Of a stretch of 21,157 nt of DNA, positions 12,445 to 21,157 are shown piece by piece. Position 1 is the stretch's first letter. Each line of letters begins with the position of its first letter. The notes under the pieces were generated by a model that was given only the letters and a program-made list of their open reading frames with translations, did not search any database and was not told where the DNA came from. The DNA lies in the IMG/VR virus record IMGVR_UViG_3300010151_000240, positions 1 to 21,157 of that record; one strand, written 5' to 3'. Made by a program: the position numbers and the translations under genes. The DNA is from a virus.

Positions 12445-14143
12445 CAGTCAAAACCTTTCCTGTATCATCAAAAGCAAAGTCAATCTCTTTTAATCGACCT
12501 GTACCATGATCAAACAGTAAACATGTAGCCACACCTGACCTACCAGTAAGCCTGTTCTTTAGTACACGAACAATGGTTGTGTTTGCGACCGCATGATCTG
12601 GGTTCTGTCTATCTCTTTCAAGAGCAATGACAGTATTAGGAACACTCGCAAGTGAACCAGAACCACGAAGATCCTGAAGAGTAATACGATCACCCTCTTC
12701 ATATGCTTTCACTGTCTTCTTAAGTTGAGATACCACATCGATACGAACACCTGTCCTGCTTACCAGTGACCGAAGTTCTTTCATAATGTTATCTATAAGT
12801 AACCTCTCGGACGATCCTCCGTTGAAGTCGCTATCTGTAGAAAGAAGGCCAGCAGCAGCAGCGGTAATATGATCAAGAACGATAACATCCACACCAAGAG
12901 AAACAGACATAAACTCAATACGAGCACACAGATTCTGAAGACCTGAGTTACCCAAGTGGTCATATATGTATAGAGAGTTGGCTTCCAATTGTTTACGGGC
13001 ATCTGCATACTCCTCATCTGTTAGATCATCAATGATGTCTATGTTTATTGGAGGTTTACCCAGCTTGGTACGTAACTCATTCATGATTTTCTTTGCTCGA
13101 ATAGCTCGAACAGGTTTGTTAATCATAAGAGATACCATGTCATCAACTGTTTCTTGGGGAGATTCCTCAAGCATGATTGCTCCAACACTACGGCCTTCAA
13201 TTAAGTGATGATGAATGATCTCACGTAAGATAGTAGACTTGCCACTACCAGTACCGCTAGCCCAAAGAGTAATTTCACCACTACGCTGGCCGAGAAGGAA
13301 CTCAGATAGGTTGTCAAAGGGAAAGGGATAGACCTTTGGATCTACCAGTCCCTCATTAATTACCTGAGACACATGAACAATCTCATCCGGTGAGTATTGT
13401 TGTGCTTCCCACATGGCATTGATTACAGCCTTGCCTTGATTATTTATGAGACATTCATTAGCATCTTTATAAGGAAGCTTGGCTACCTTACATTTTCCCG
13501 GTGGCAGTAGATCTGCTACAGACTTGACTGCTTCTTGACCTGCCTCATCCTGATCGAACATCAAGATAATACTCTCGTAACTACAAAGGAACTCAAGGTT
13601 ATCCTTGATTGCACGAGCAGCACCAGCAGCACCGTTAGGAAGAGAGACTACAGGATACTTGTTGCCATTCAACTGGCTTACAGTCATGCAATCAATCTCG
13701 CCTTCGGTAATAACAATCATACGACCACCAGTTTTACGGAACAAATGCTGGCCCCACAAAGGAACCTGCGTTGTTTGTCCTCTCCATTGGAAGGTCTTGT
13801 TCGGACCACGTAGCTTCTGTGCTATCTTCTGTCCATCACGATAGAAGGAAGAAATCTCTACCCTCTTACCTTCTCTCTCAACAGTCGCATAGTCATACTT
13901 GCGAGCTGTATCCTCATTAATCTTTCGACTACCAATGGCCTGAAGTTTTCCGTTAAGAAACTTCAGACCATTGGAGTCAGGGGTTTGTTCAGACATCACT
14001 TTGGATGTACCTCCGTGTTCATAATATTTACATGAATAGCAATACTTATGTCCATCATCATAGATAGCTAAGTTATCGCCCTTTGTATCTTCATTCTTCG
14101 CAGCACAGGCTGGACACCTGCCCCGTGACATTACCTTAGACAT
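12425..14143 (-). CDS. Bifunctional primase-helicase, T7 gp4-like (572 aa)
   Basis: This protein unwinds DNA at the fork as a ring and makes RNA primers. The N-terminal zinc ribbon has Cys10, Cys13, Cys35 and Cys38. The TOPRIM primase core has Glu147 (ITEGEID) and Asp197/Asp199 (MFDQDE). The helicase has a Walker A loop at 296-304 (SGTGSGKST), a Walker B aspartate at 424 (VIVLDH), the G-S-x-S-L-A-S-V-P-N motif near 495-503 and K-N-R-x-x-G-R-S-G near 529-537, where T7 has its arginine finger. Like T7 gp4 it ends in an acidic tail with a terminal Phe (DDATGF), which in T7 contacts the polymerase. A GTGAGGT ribosome site precedes the ATG. A second start at codon 49 or 50 is possible and is listed separately. 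Confidence 0.96.
   Translation of the reverse strand: MSKVMSRGRCPACAAKNEDTKGDNLAIYDDGHKYCYSCKYYEHGGTSKVMSEQTPDSNGLKFLNGKLQAIGSRKINEDTARKYDYATVEREGKRVEISSFYRDGQKIAQKLRGPNKTFQWRGQTTQVPLWGQHLFRKTGGRMIVITEGEIDCMTVSQLNGNKYPVVSLPNGAAGAARAIKDNLEFLCSYESIILMFDQDEAGQEAVKSVADLLPPGKCKVAKLPYKDANECLINNQGKAVINAMWEAQQYSPDEIVHVSQVINEGLVDPKVYPFPFDNLSEFLLGQRSGEITLWASGTGSGKSTILREIIHHHLIEGRSVGAIMLEESPQETVDDMVSLMINKPVRAIRAKKIMNELRTKLGKPPINIDIIDDLTDEEYADARKQLEANSLYIYDHLGNSGLQNLCARIEFMSVSLGVDVIVLDHITAAAAGLLSTDSDFNGGSSERLLIDNIMKELRSLVSRTGVRIDVVSQLKKTVKAYEEGDRITLQDLRGSGSLASVPNTVIALERDRQNPDHAVANTTIVRVLKNRLTGRSGVATCLLFDHGTGRLKEIDFAFDDTGKVLTDDATGF
13994..14014 (-). promoter_or_regulatory. Possible internal ribosome site and start for a helicase-only form
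   Basis: Inside the primase-helicase gene a GGAGG sequence (14010-14014) lies 10 nt before an in-frame GTG (codon 49) and 13 nt before an in-frame ATG (codon 50). Starting there would remove only the zinc ribbon. T7 makes such a form, gp4B, from an internal start at codon 64. The GGAGG here also encodes Gly-Gly, so it could be coincidence. Confidence 0.4.
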
Positions 14144-14948: not shown

Positions 14949-15021
14949 TAAGCTGGGTCGGATTCGAACCGACGACCAGACGATTATGAGTCGTGTGCTC
15001 TGACCGCTGAGCTACCAGCTC
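14949..15021 (-). tRNA. tRNA with CAU anticodon, probably tRNA-Ile2 (AUA reader), otherwise tRNA-Met
   Basis: The 73-nt cloverleaf has a 7-bp acceptor stem (G1·U72 wobble), D stem GCTC/GAGC, anticodon loop CTCATAA, variable loop TGGTC and T arm GTCGG-TTCGAAT-CCGAC. The discriminator is A and no CCA is encoded. The anticodon stem has a C·C mismatch at 27-43. The anticodon arm and variable loop resemble E. coli ileX more than elongator tRNA-Met (CGA-loop-TCG stem core and TGGTC), and the pair C4-G69 is also as in tRNA-Ile2. If so, C34 must be changed to lysidine by the host TilS enzyme. It lies 3 nt from the next tRNA. Confidence 0.88.
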
Positions 15022-15024
15022 AAG

Positions 15025-15097
15025 TAGCTCCGCTGGGACTCGAACCCAGACTGTATGGATTTTAAGTCCACTGCCTCTGCCATTGGGCTACGGAGCC
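15025..15097 (-). tRNA. tRNA with UAA anticodon (tRNA-Leu, UUA), short variable loop
   Basis: The 73-nt cloverleaf has acceptor GGCTCCG/CGGAGCT (G1·U72), a weak D stem (GCCC/AGGC, three pairs), anticodon stem GTGGA/TCCAT with loop CTTAAAA, variable loop ACAGT and T arm CTGGG-TTCGAGT-CCCAG. The discriminator is A. The anticodon UAA reads UUA. Bacterial tRNA-Leu normally has a long variable arm, so the 5-nt variable loop is unusual. A73, the identity base for Leu, is kept. Confidence 0.85.
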
Positions 15098-15605: not shown

Positions 15606-15678
15606 CACTCCCGGCACGGCTCGAACGTGCGACCTACGGTTTAGAAGACCGTTGCTCTATCCACTGAGCTACGGGAGC
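15606..15678 (-). tRNA. tRNA-Arg (UCU anticodon, reads AGA)
   Basis: The 73-nt cloverleaf has acceptor GCTCCCG/CGGGAGT (G1·U72), D stem GCTC/GAGC, a perfect anticodon stem ACGGT/ACCGT with loop CTTCTAA, variable loop AGGTC and T arm GCACG-TTCGAGC-CGTGC. The discriminator is G, usual for Arg. CCA is not encoded. It sits 15 nt after the RusA stop. A weak -35/-10-like pair (TTGATT, 15 nt, TATAAC at 15684-15710) overlaps the end of RusA, but I would not rely on it. Confidence 0.95.
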
Positions 15679-15693
15679 CGGGGGTTATAGTTG

Positions 15694-16074
15694 TTAATAT
15701 ATATAATCAACTCCAATAATAAAGGAACCCTCTGATCCTTTCTCTGCCCACTGCTTGGTAGCATAGACGGTTTGGATAAGGGTGTCATCGACCCATAGTT
15801 TCTTGTTAAGAGAATCAAAGACAGCCTTAAGAAAGTTATCTATATCTGCTCTTGGCATTGCTAACTTAGTTGTCTTAGGTCTACGAATAAACAATTCGAC
15901 ATCAACTTTAATTGGTTGATCGAATGGTTTAAAGTCAGGACCAAGGACAAAGTCTATTATATCTATGATCTCTTCCCGCCATGCTTTATAAGGCCCAGCG
16001 AAGTAAGCCCCATGCCGTGAGACACGGGGCCTACTTGCTGCGACGGGACTGATTGGGAAAACCCACTCAGGCAT
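15694..16074 (-). CDS. RusA-like Holliday junction resolvase (126 aa)
   Basis: RusA enzymes cut four-way DNA junctions as dimers, to clear recombination intermediates before packaging. The family core is seen: R-P-R-V-S-R early (15-20), then M-P-R-A-D-I-D-N-F-L-K-A-V-F-D-S-L-N (73-90) and W-V-D-D-T-L-I (94-100). Asp77, Asp79 and Asp96/97 are the likely metal ligands, and a later Lys (107) is in the usual place. The length is normal for the family (about 120). The start shares one base with the stop of the ssDNA-binding protein gene (TGATG). In T7 the endonuclease gene 3 sits at this spot after gene 2.5, so RusA seems to take the place of the unrelated T7 endonuclease I. Confidence 0.9.
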   Translation of the reverse strand: MPEWVFPISPVAASRPRVSRHGAYFAGPYKAWREEIIDIIDFVLGPDFKPFDQPIKVDVELFIRRPKTTKLAMPRADIDNFLKAVFDSLNKKLWVDDTLIQTVYATKQWAEKGSEGSFIIGVDYIY

Positions 16075-16601
16075 CAGAAGGGGAGATCATCATCCTGATC
16101 ACCGTCCGAAGACGTTGACTCAGGAGCTTTGTACTTCGAGCCATCGAAACCTTCGGTGGATTCAAAGCCGCAGTCTCCTCCTAGTTCCATTGAATTCTTT
16201 TCAATGATCTGAACACCGTTGAGATAGATACTAAGGCTACCATCTCGGGTTAGCAGAGCCGGTGCAAGACGAAGGCGAACCTTGTCTCCACCAAAAGCTA
16301 CAGCATCTGTTCGTTCCGCAGCCGCATCACGGCAGGGGAATACCTTCACACCCTTCTTAACCAACGTCTTAGACTTGGCTTTCAATAAGGTGCGACCATC
16401 ATCATCGACACGCATGCCGTTGATCTTTGTTGCTCCACTTTCCTTGACAATAGCGTCAAGCTTCTTCTGAAGCTCCTTGTCAACAAGGACAGTGATACTG
16501 TGGTTAGCAGTGTCTTCACCAAACTTATTGTCAGGGGCGTGGAGATGTGACCACACAGCATCCAGTGTGTGTGTGGTAAAAGGACTAATCTTCGTTGTCA
16601 T
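16074..16601 (-). CDS. Single-stranded DNA-binding protein, T7 gp2.5-like (175 aa)
   Basis: The protein would coat ssDNA at the fork and contact polymerase and primase-helicase. It has an OB-fold-like β pattern. The strongest mark is the acidic C-terminus ending in Phe (D-G-D-Q-D-D-D-L-P-F), shared by gp2.5 and SSB proteins and used for protein contacts. It lies just before RusA, as gene 2.5 lies before gene 3 in T7. It is shorter than T7 gp2.5 (232). The frame is open to a GTG at 16613, but that codon overlaps the AGGAG site, so I place the start at the ATG at 16601 (11 nt spacing). A GTG at 16604 (8 nt) is the alternative. It overlaps the upstream gene by 17 nt. Confidence 0.87.
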   Translation of the reverse strand: MTTKISPFTTHTLDAVWSHLHAPDNKFGEDTANHSITVLVDKELQKKLDAIVKESGATKINGMRVDDDGRTLLKAKSKTLVKKGVKVFPCRDAAAERTDAVAFGGDKVRLRLAPALLTRDGSLSIYLNGVQIIEKNSMELGGDCGFESTEGFDGSKYKAPESTSSDGDQDDDLPF

Positions 16602-17676: not shown

Positions 17677-20121
17677 CTAAGCAAAGAAATATTCTGATTC
17701 AATTACACTCTCCAAGTTGAGGCTACCTTGTGTTGGCGGCTCCGATAAATTAGTTCCAAGATTTTTTTGCACATCTCTTTTGAACTGCTCAAGGCAGTTA
17801 TTCTTATGCATTTGTAAAAACTCTTCTCGTATTAAGTCTCTCATAAGAGGGACGTTGTTTGCATGACACCCATAGGAATCATGTATCATACAGTAATCCT
17901 CTATATCATAGTCTATCATACGGTCAATTGTCAAGAACATATGAGCAGCATCTAGAGAATGAATGTAGTTTGGTGAGATTGCTTGGCGTGCAGCCCGAGG
18001 ATCTGGGTCGCTTGTCCGTACAAAGAAATGAAGTTCCTTGCTACCGAATAGTTTAGCTACAGATCTTCTAGTCTGTGTCTTAGTGTAGTGGTGTATAACT
18101 TTGAACCCACTAGGAGTTACCCAAGACAGGTGTTTGTTAAGTGAGCTAGCAACGTCAGCTATTTCCTTAAGCCAACCCTTACCGTTGTTAGAGTTTACTA
18201 ATGTCTGATCTAATGCAGCCTTAATAGCACGGGCTAACTCAACGATAGCACCACCACGTTTATCTTTTGATATCCAATCAAGATGACCCTCTATTCTAAT
18301 ATATTTCTGTATCCCATAGAAGGTCAGGCCATAGGCTTCGCACATGGTACTACGTTTAGTTACGTTACGATGTATACCTTCTGACCAGTACTCAGAAAAC
18401 TTCTCTAACCAAGAATTTTCATTGGATTTAAACAAGCAGTATTCTGTTGTTCTATCAGCCACGAATTGATAGAGGTCTTCAGGTTTGTTAGATGGGGAGA
18501 CACCAGTTAAATGTGCGATGTTCTTATCCCTCATGATAGCAGACCAGTGTTGATTACCATTACACTTGCCATCAAGCTGCACTGGTATATCCGAGCAGCC
18601 ATCCTCTTTCATTATATCTAAGACAGAGGCCAATCTCTGGAATGATTTGTTCTTTTTCTTAGCGTCATCTACCCACTCCCTATTTTCATAGGGATCCTCA
18701 TTGATCCTTCTTAACATATCCCAGTTATCATCAACCCATTGTACCCTATCATCAAAGGATATTTTATCCTGATCAAATAGATTCGCAAGGTGTACCTTCC
18801 TCCAGTACTCCCCCTCAACCGTTAGTCTTTGCCTGTTAGCCAGACGGATAAGGCCACGGTCAAAGTCAGAGGACTGCGGTGATAGAAGCTCACAAATAGT
18901 ATACCCTCGGCCCCTGAAATCTAATGTCCATACGTGATAGAAGTATTCCCAGTCTAATAAGTCCTCAGCCAACCGAATTCTAACGAGCATTCTTCCACGC
19001 TTCTGCTCATCCTTATACCACTCACCCCACGTTTCCTCCCTAAGCTGGCACCATTTTGCTTGGTCTTCTTTAGTTCCATCTATAGGGTATGGAGCACTGT
19101 ACATAAACTCCTCAAAGGAGAAGTAGGGTAGGTTAGCTAGTCCTGTGTTGTTCTCAAAGAGATTCTTCATGACATTCAGAACCTCAGAGTTTACTGACCA
19201 CTCTGTCCTCATCAAGGCATTAAGACCTTTGATTACTAGATCAGATGGCTCGGAAAACTTCTGTTGTTTCTGTTCATCCCCAAAGAAATTATCTTTATAC
19301 TTCTGAACAACAGGCTTACGTAAGTTAGTGTGTATATACCCACCACTTGCAGCTAATGTATGATCATTCGGTGGTGTTAACATAGGACGATAGATTAACG
19401 TAGAGTTTTGTAGTATCTCATGCCGATTGTGTAGTTCTTTTAATACATCAGTATGAAACTCAACAAAAGAATAGGTTCGATAGGAGTTTCTTATCTTCAC
19501 CTTCTCTTTACGGAGGATAATAATATTAGAAGAAGCAGCGATCTCAAGCATGTGATGACCGAAGCTGTGCTTTTGTTTAGCAGTAAGTTTAATATTCTTC
19601 TGCATCTTCTTAGCAAAAGCATTACATCTCTTTACTGTCCAGTTCTTCACGAACTTAGATTGTTTCTTCCAATCTTGATAGTGATCTTCTTTCGCACGCT
19701 GGTATGCAATGATATCACAAGCATCACTTGCAATCTGTGTTGCTATTTTCTGTGCTAATGGTGGTGTATGTATGTGATCAGAGTATAGGTGTCCCCAGAA
19801 TGACGGCGTAAACCAGTGGCGTATGATCGCACGTATGGTAATGTCAGCCAGCTTTCTTGCCCCCAATTCTAACAAAGGATAGAGCCAATCAGGAGATCTC
19901 TTAGTGTTCTTACACACGATATCAATCCATTCTTGGAAACTATCCTCTAATTCTTTTACAGAAGAATCAATAAGGCATTGCTCTGGTACCCCCTCATCGG
20001 GTGCTCTCTTGTAATCAGACCAGTAGCGGTGCCTGCCATACTCAAGCATGTCCTGCTCATATCTCAACTGTCCATTACGACGGGCTAACTGAACGTCTTC
20101 AGTTTCTGTATCCCATATCAT
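17677..20121 (-). CDS. Single-subunit T7-type DNA-dependent RNA polymerase (814 aa)
   Basis: This enzyme transcribes the phage middle and late genes from phage promoters. All key T7 residues have counterparts: Asp517 in V-Q-L-D-G-K-C-N-G (T7 Asp537), Lys589 and Tyr597 in K-R-S-T-M-C-E-A-Y-G (T7 Lys631, Tyr639), and Asp748 in I-H-D-S-Y-G (T7 Asp812). The F-R-G-R-G-Y block is at 402-407. The end E-Y-F-F-A resembles the T7 'FAFA' foot. The promoter specificity loop lies about residues 680-710. The length is less than the T7 883, mostly from a shorter N-terminal domain. The ATG overlaps the previous stop by 4 nt (ATGA). I did not find a promoter it would use. Confidence 0.97.
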   Translation of the reverse strand: MIWDTETEDVQLARRNGQLRYEQDMLEYGRHRYWSDYKRAPDEGVPEQCLIDSSVKELEDSFQEWIDIVCKNTKRSPDWLYPLLELGARKLADITIRAIIRHWFTPSFWGHLYSDHIHTPPLAQKIATQIASDACDIIAYQRAKEDHYQDWKKQSKFVKNWTVKRCNAFAKKMQKNIKLTAKQKHSFGHHMLEIAASSNIIILRKEKVKIRNSYRTYSFVEFHTDVLKELHNRHEILQNSTLIYRPMLTPPNDHTLAASGGYIHTNLRKPVVQKYKDNFFGDEQKQQKFSEPSDLVIKGLNALMRTEWSVNSEVLNVMKNLFENNTGLANLPYFSFEEFMYSAPYPIDGTKEDQAKWCQLREETWGEWYKDEQKRGRMLVRIRLAEDLLDWEYFYHVWTLDFRGRGYTICELLSPQSSDFDRGLIRLANRQRLTVEGEYWRKVHLANLFDQDKISFDDRVQWVDDNWDMLRRINEDPYENREWVDDAKKKNKSFQRLASVLDIMKEDGCSDIPVQLDGKCNGNQHWSAIMRDKNIAHLTGVSPSNKPEDLYQFVADRTTEYCLFKSNENSWLEKFSEYWSEGIHRNVTKRSTMCEAYGLTFYGIQKYIRIEGHLDWISKDKRGGAIVELARAIKAALDQTLVNSNNGKGWLKEIADVASSLNKHLSWVTPSGFKVIHHYTKTQTRRSVAKLFGSKELHFFVRTSDPDPRAARQAISPNYIHSLDAAHMFLTIDRMIDYDIEDYCMIHDSYGCHANNVPLMRDLIREEFLQMHKNNCLEQFKRDVQKNLGTNLSEPPTQGSLNLESVIESEYFFA

Positions 20122-20387
20122 TCCCCTAGTTCCTCCCGAAGTTCGTTGTATTCTTCTTGAGTTATCTTACCGAAGGCGAGGTCATAGTTGAGATTGTACA
20201 ACTCTTTTGACACAATTCTTTCAGAGCCTTCAATTGTTTGTTTGTTTGGTGTATACAACTCTGGCTTTGGACCGGGGTCAATCCCTCTCTTGCGTGAAGC
20301 TTCCCGTTTTTGATGCTTTGCACGTAGCTTCTTCCAGTTTTTATGCGCATTGAAAGAACCGCCGTGTATCTGATCTGGTATTGACAT
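20118..20387 (-). CDS. Small basic protein upstream of RNA polymerase, unknown function (89 aa)
   Basis: The frame is open to an ATG at 20450, but I choose the ATG at 20387 because it has a good AAGGAG site 7 nt upstream, while the farther ATG lies in the loop of a hairpin. The N-terminal half is rich in Lys and Arg (about 17-35, HKNWKKLRAKHQKREASRKR), so it may bind nucleic acid. The C-terminal part (L-N-Y-D-L-A-F-G-K-I-T-Q-E-E-Y-N-E-L-R-E-E-L) resembles the short SHOCT-like helical motif. The last 4 nt overlap the RNA polymerase start, so the two genes are co-translated. It is possibly an RNAP partner, from context only. Confidence 0.7.
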   Translation of the reverse strand: MSIPDQIHGGSFNAHKNWKKLRAKHQKREASRKRGIDPGPKPELYTPNKQTIEGSERIVSKELYNLNYDLAFGKITQEEYNELREELGE

Positions 20388-20407
20388 ATCTCTTCTCCTT
20401 ATAAGGT

Positions 20408-20480
20408 GAATAGTACCCTGACCCGGCCATTTTAAGGACAGCACACGCATTAGCAGTGGTCCACCGGGCAGGGACTATTC
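20408..20480 (-). promoter_or_regulatory. Long imperfect hairpin upstream of the RNA polymerase operon, RNase III-site-like
   Basis: The arms at 20464-20480 and 20408-20426 pair over 17 bp, interrupted only by two single-base bulges (20415 and 20421) on one arm. The loop is 37 nt and can fold weakly by itself (GGAC/GTCC). The 3' arm ends 7 nt before the AAGGAG ribosome site of the 89-aa gene. T7 has RNase III processing sites between its early genes, including just before gene 1 (RNA polymerase). No T run follows, so termination is less likely. The pairing is seen, the function is inferred. Confidence 0.6.
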
Positions 20481-20486
20481 GTTACC

Positions 20487-21157
20487 TCACATAGCAAGGG
20501 CATGCTGCATAACCTTGCGGCTAGCCTCAGATCCATTACCAATGAGATTACTGTAAGCACGGGATGCTGGCGTAGCCTGACGACCTCTAGCAGATTTGCG
20601 GTGCTGAATATGGTTCGTCACAGCGTTGACAGCAAGCCACCAGCTTGCAGGTAGAAGACCTGACTCTTGCTCGAAGGTGTTATCCCATGTACCAATGGTT
20701 GCAACAGCCTTGGTATGAGCCTTCTCCTCTTCAGGTGTAATCGGACGAGTAGGGATGTACCCTTCCATATCTTGATACACATCGAAGAAGAATCGACGCA
20801 GTTCATTATGACTGATGGGTCGATTGACAAGGGTATCAACCTGATTACGGAACAACATACCTGTGTTCTTGTACTCAGCAAGGATATCCTTAGCCTCTTG
20901 CATCTTAGTATCCATGTCACCATGGTGCTTGATGGTCATCTTGTTCTTAGTATCTTGAGCCAACGCCATGTCCATAGTGTTCTTACAAACAACACGGATA
21001 CTAGTGGGCTTGAGTACAATAGAACTCTTACCATCGTGACCCCAGAACAGAGCCATGTATCGTTCAACAGTATCATCGAGTGATGCCTCAAACGAATCTT
21101 GATTGAGCAACAGGTAGCACTTGCGTCCACCTTGGATAGAGCCAGCAGACTCAACCG
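20487..21157 (-). CDS. DUF932 domain protein (phage/plasmid-like protein), C-terminal 222 residues, 5' end outside window
   Basis: The frame is open to the right edge, and translation continues beyond the TTG at 21110 into residues E-S-A-G-S-I-Q-G-G-R-K, the usual DUF932 block. The next parts, an E-R-Y-M-A-L-F-W segment and T-S-I-R-V-V-C-K-N-T-M-D-M-A-L, match the same family, so the true start lies upstream of the window. DUF932 proteins occur in many phages and plasmids. Their function is unknown, with suggestions of roles near recombination or DNA metabolism. The gene ends just before the hairpin at 20408-20480, so it is part of the early or middle block upstream of RNA polymerase. Confidence 0.85.
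   Translation of the reverse strand, partial: VESAGSIQGGRKCYLLLNQDSFEASLDDTVERYMALFWGHDGKSSIVLKPTSIRVVCKNTMDMALAQDTKNKMTIKHHGDMDTKMQEAKDILAEYKNTGMLFRNQVDTLVNRPISHNELRRFFFDVYQDMEGYIPTRPITPEEEKAHTKAVATIGTWDNTFEQESGLLPASWWLAVNAVTNHIQHRKSARGRQATPASRAYSNLIGNGSEASRKVMQHALAM

Follow-up and report, generated by a model that had tools for sequence, protein, structure and literature searches.

A conserved hairpin slot ahead of a T7-type RNA polymerase gene as a probable, exchangeable transcript boundary in uncultured viruses

The gap between a DUF932 gene and a T7-type RNA polymerase (RNAP) gene holds a strong RNA hairpin in a virus fragment of 21,157 nt (the whole stretch of DNA analysed here, referred to as the window). 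In most related lineages the slot and the pairing are conserved, whereas the sequence is not. The hairpin is probably an exchangeable transcript-boundary element, either a terminator or a processing hairpin, and probably does not serve to cover a ribosome site. More specifically, we hold with moderate confidence that it is a boundary hairpin, which fixes and protects the 3′ end of DUF932 and reduces read-through to the polymerase genes. The gap would then serve to control expression of the phage polymerase, with a fixed position and pairing but a sequence that is swapped as a unit. Its natural variants, with and without a U-run, with a promoter of their own or filled with arrays, offer a way to test how T7-like phages control polymerase dose.

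The hairpin and its gene neighbourhood

The main genes of this 21-kb fragment are all on the minus strand. The order begins with DUF932, which is cut by the contig end and of which the 3′ part is present (20487–21155, −; Pfam PF06067, E 1.2e-28; phrog_1221). It is followed by a small ORF of 89 amino acids (20118–20387, −), a T7-type single-subunit RNA polymerase (17677–20121, −; phrog_414, E 6e-169; PF00940) and then replication genes. The genes after the polymerase include a metallophosphoesterase, a gp2.5-like SSB, a helicase-primase, a DNA polymerase, an exonuclease, a ribonucleotide reductase and a head-tail connector. Three tRNA genes (14949–15097 and 15606–15678, −) lie among the replication genes. 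The small ORF is kept in relatives, and profile searches matched it to no family. A start at 20450, within the hairpin, was rejected for this ORF, as its homology begins at or after 20387.

The window DNA has no relatives in the isolate-phage collection, and the top listed matches of its polymerase to isolate phages are all below 30% identity. Polymerases 50–86% identical to it are found on dozens of IMG/VR contigs, which are taken to be from aquatic or marine viruses. DUF932 is upstream of the polymerase in most loci with enough upstream sequence.

Folding gives a main hairpin (20408–20480, −) made of an 18-bp helix and a structured apex (20428–20462, −). The arms of the helix, 20463–20480 and 20408–20427, form 11 G-C pairs among the 18 and leave two 1-nt bulges, each in the downstream arm. 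The helix begins 7 nt past the DUF932 stop codon. Outside it, a further helix of 7 bp (20484–20490 with 20401–20407) holds the stop codon itself (20487–20489), and the whole element extends over 20401–20490 (−). The Shine-Dalgarno sequence of the small ORF, AAGGAG (20395–20400, −), lies outside the hairpin, 7 nt from the main helix. A sequence-only reading of this DNA had described a 17-bp stem with two single-base bulges, ending 7 nt before the ribosome site. Its coordinates, bulges and spacing agree with the fold; its stem length does not, the helix being 18 bp by folding, and the outer helix and structured apex are two parts beyond that description.

Over 96 nt the hairpin has a minimum free energy of −45.4 (z −5.9), and over 100 nt one of −46.5 (z −6.9). 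In 48 locally shuffled versions of the 21-kb strand, no 100-nt segment was at or below −46.5, in line with the earlier expectation that such a stem would not arise by chance in 21 kb. A strong fold does not by itself prove function, because the window holds a stronger hairpin (15978–16077, −; −50.6 per 100 nt) inside a coding gene, near the start of the ORF at 15694–16074. A 17-nt inverted repeat, 94% complementary, is also present inside the helicase-primase gene (13932–13974, −). When the whole window was searched with the Rfam 15 covariance models at the gathering score, three tRNAs only were returned, and the hairpin matches no family.

Conservation of the slot and exchange of its sequence

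Clustering of the polymerases at 97% gave 51 lineages, all of uncultured viruses. A simple-gap set was formed by 34 lineages, in which DUF932 is in reach and the gap is without a ACAATCTA or ACAATTTA linker. After the DUF932 stop, 30 of the 34 have a helix with 10 bp or more and five or more G-C pairs, compared with 7.4 expected from dinucleotide shuffles, and 26 have one of at least 12 bp (5.5 expected). The combination of at least 12 bp and a U-run (at least five U in the next 8) was found in 11 of the 34 (0.05 expected), and a U-run directly after the stem is present in 12 of the 34 by the stricter count; in all these counts the lineages are related, and hence not independent events. Copies with a U-run occur in several separate clades on the polymerase tree (L034; L020; L022/L023/L025; L078–L091; L085).

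The start of the helix lies a median of 11.5 nt past the DUF932 stop (sd 9 nt), whereas the distance to the next start codon has an sd of 52 nt and can reach 90–170 nt or more in relatives. This steady spacing on one side and variable spacing on the other ties the element to the 3′ end of DUF932. Base pairs changed on both sides were seen in four alignable groups, with four such pairs in L026–L029, two in L045/L047/L053, two in L078–L091 and three in L092/L094/L095, alongside an occasional broken cell in these alignments. The alignment of the window with L024, L020 and L021 is misaligned at the hairpin and was left out of the pair counts. Conservation of pairing in relatives had been set as a check by the sequence-only reading, and it is borne out both by the 30 lineages and by the two-sided changes in these groups. 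The early regions upstream of RNAP in G005, G009 and G013 contain many intergenic gaps with very stable hairpins, some of them then followed by a U-run, and these gaps cluster ahead of the polymerase gene.

Judged by sequence comparison, the hairpin acts like a separate unit that is exchanged independently of the polymerase. Between the window and L024 it differs at 2 of 93 positions (98% identical), apex included, and both differences turn a G-C pair into G-U in the fold. The flanks of the same two loci (DUF932, small ORF and RNAP) are 68–80% identical at the DNA level, and the jump in identity falls exactly at the hairpin edges. The nearest polymerase relative of the window is L020 (86% protein identity), the hairpin of which is unrelated to that of the window and identical to that of L021. 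In the polymerase tree the window pairs with L020, and L024 with L021, both with full support. The hairpin types therefore disagree with the polymerase tree, which means that hairpins and polymerases have different histories. Recombination at the hairpin edges could have produced this pattern, as could strong sequence constraint together with replacement. The window type of hairpin is found in two known lineages only, and a pattern search with its apex returned a single copy, on the L024 contig. A pattern search with the flank ATGTGAGGTAACGAA returned 21 stretches, of which three come from L024, L020 and L021, known members of the clade, and the others are presumed to be chance. Between most lineages, shared hairpin sequence is absent.

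Termination, processing and other explanations

Taken across the family, the sequence signature is that of an intrinsic terminator placed where DUF932 ends. The window copy is a G-C rich hairpin soon after the stop codon, but a U-run right after the stem is missing: the tail is ACCUUAUAAGGA, with 3 U of 8, and no terminator-like match was found at the window hairpin. The window copy is therefore not filed as a canonical terminator. A U-run directly after the helix is also missing in L024, L026–L029, L045/L047/L053, L055, L071 and L074. No sigma-70 promoter with one mismatch or fewer was found between the hairpin and RNAP in the simple-gap lineages, window included, and the polymerase must therefore come from read-through or from another promoter type.

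We propose that the family hairpin acts as a leaky intrinsic terminator at the 3′ end of an early DUF932 message. The host polymerase would end most transcripts at the hairpin, while a minority would continue through the small ORF and on into the gene for the phage polymerase. The outcome, and the effect on polymerase level that we infer, would be an excess of DUF932 over the polymerase. The window copy, with its stable stem and no U-run, would mark the 3′ end of DUF932 and shield it by blocking exonucleases, possibly with processing, and would let more transcription through. One point against the boundary reading is that the window and L024 hairpins are 98% identical across stem and apex, closer than a generic stem requires.

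A related arrangement has been described in the T7-like Pseudomonas phage LUZ100 (OP329100), where the Rho-independent terminator T4 lies upstream of the RNAP gene, after the integrase, and read-through has been proposed as the route to the first polymerase (PMC10134795). As in the window, a hairpin is placed between an upstream gene and a T7-type polymerase gene. The window copy differs from T4 in that it lacks a U-run, its stem is much longer and its apex is complex. Mosaic phages carry conserved boundary sequences and terminator-flanked inserts, and the hairpin resembles these as a short non-coding unit between genes that moves independently of its neighbours. Here, however, position and pairing are kept while the sequence is swapped wholesale, and arrays replace the hairpin in some lineages.

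Cleavage by RNase III, which the sequence-only reading had raised, is the other of two live mechanisms, and not the favoured one. At a putative site like that before T7 gene 1, the host enzyme would cut the stem and part the DUF932 and RNAP messages, leaving protected ends; this is possible, and we put it forward only tentatively. The window does have a long, imperfect double-stranded stem between early cistrons (18 and 7 bp, bulged), with an early gene on one side and the polymerase operon on the other, and further strong hairpins occur in the early region of relatives. T7 likewise has bulged or looped hairpins in the gaps flanking its polymerase gene, and the gaps before genes 1, 1.1 and 1.3 contain sites cleaved by RNase III. 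The T7 folds at the corresponding gaps are much weaker (−22 to −26 per ~95 nt, vs −46.5 in the window). Stem length cannot choose between the boundary and RNase III readings, because T7's own hairpins are shorter, and the U-runs that often follow the stems in the window's relatives, unlike in T7, favour termination instead.

The high conservation of the hairpin relative to its flanks, and its exchange independently of the polymerase, could also be explained if it were a functional RNA in its own right, kept for a specific apex and filling, as a single unit, a slot that other lineages fill with ACAATCTA-linked arrays, which swap modules likewise. This is unlikely, given that the window gap has neither linker nor shared module and that the hairpin is confined to two known lineages. 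The exact edges of the identity jump, and the conflict of hairpin type with the polymerase tree, would equally suit a recombination boundary, i.e. a short conserved junction sequence for module exchange with no role as RNA; pairing is kept without sequence in most lineages, and most have no sequence in common, which makes such a boundary highly improbable. The sequence-only reading had also suggested that the hairpin could mask and release the small ORF's ribosome site, and the outer helix does abut the Shine-Dalgarno sequence. We find this hardly credible: AAGGAG lies outside the helix, is not hidden by the hairpin and is not exposed when the hairpin is deleted in silico, the hairpin is anchored to DUF932, and the next start is 90–170 nt or more away in some relatives.

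Modular RNA arrays in related lineages

From the hairpin, the analysis went on to modular RNA arrays, which have covarying stems and match no Rfam family; they belong to relatives rather than to the window and merit their own study. In about 13 lineages the DUF932–RNAP gap measures 0.2–0.85 kb and is filled with closed structured modules split by ACAATCTA or ACAATTTA (linker consensus ACAATYTA, i.e. ACAAT[CT]TA). Arrays in this slot include L039 (1940–2690), L046 (2200–2700), L049 (460–960), L057 (670–1160) and L070 (2130–2725), among others. Modules are common to several lineages, often at 90–99% identity, with breakpoints at the linkers and a differing order. The window gap shares the location of the arrays, after DUF932 and ahead of the small ORF and RNAP, but not the linker ACAATCTA or the shared modules. 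L020 and L021 were rejected as array lineages, as their linker-like word is downstream of the gap.

Three modules show covariation or a fixed core. A short hairpin module with the loop CGTAA has covarying stems (GATGGG/CCCATC, GGTAGG/CCTACC, GATAGG/CCTATC and AATGGG/CCCATT). Module M11, read by eye, has the terminal helices GTGCG/CGCAC, GTACG/CGTAC and GTGTAG/CTACAC, and also a possible pseudoknot (GCUA/UGGC vs GCCU/AGGC). Module M2 combines a near-invariant core with a side stem of variable length. The arrays that were searched matched no Rfam family, and a relaxed threshold gave two weak sub-gathering matches outside the arrays, which were treated as chance. Arrays and M2 are absent from the isolate-phage collection, the M2 core was found by exact pattern in no GTDB species contig, and no description of the arrays was found in literature searches of open-licence papers. 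It is conceivable, if rather doubtful, that the DUF932–polymerase gap is reserved for structured RNAs that can be exchanged, with the window hairpin as a one-unit occupant bearing a functional, sequence-specific apex and the arrays, partly pseudoknotted and ACAATCTA-linked, as a previously undescribed phage non-coding RNA.

A perfect sigma-70 promoter (TTGACA-N16/17-TATAAT) is present just before the small ORF in six array lineages (L044, L049, L057, L063, L064 and L073). An ATG lies ~6 nt past the −10 box in all of these but L063, which suggests that the RNAP operon message may be leaderless in the other five (L044, L049, L057, L064 and L073). Modules also occur in other contexts (L137, 2200–2800; L142, 7600–8500; L147, 600–1240; L153, 3150–3550; L156, 2400–3560), where they follow an AAA_24 protein and its neighbour or, in L156, precede a distant T7-type polymerase, and some of these out-of-slot arrays adjoin terminator-like hairpins.
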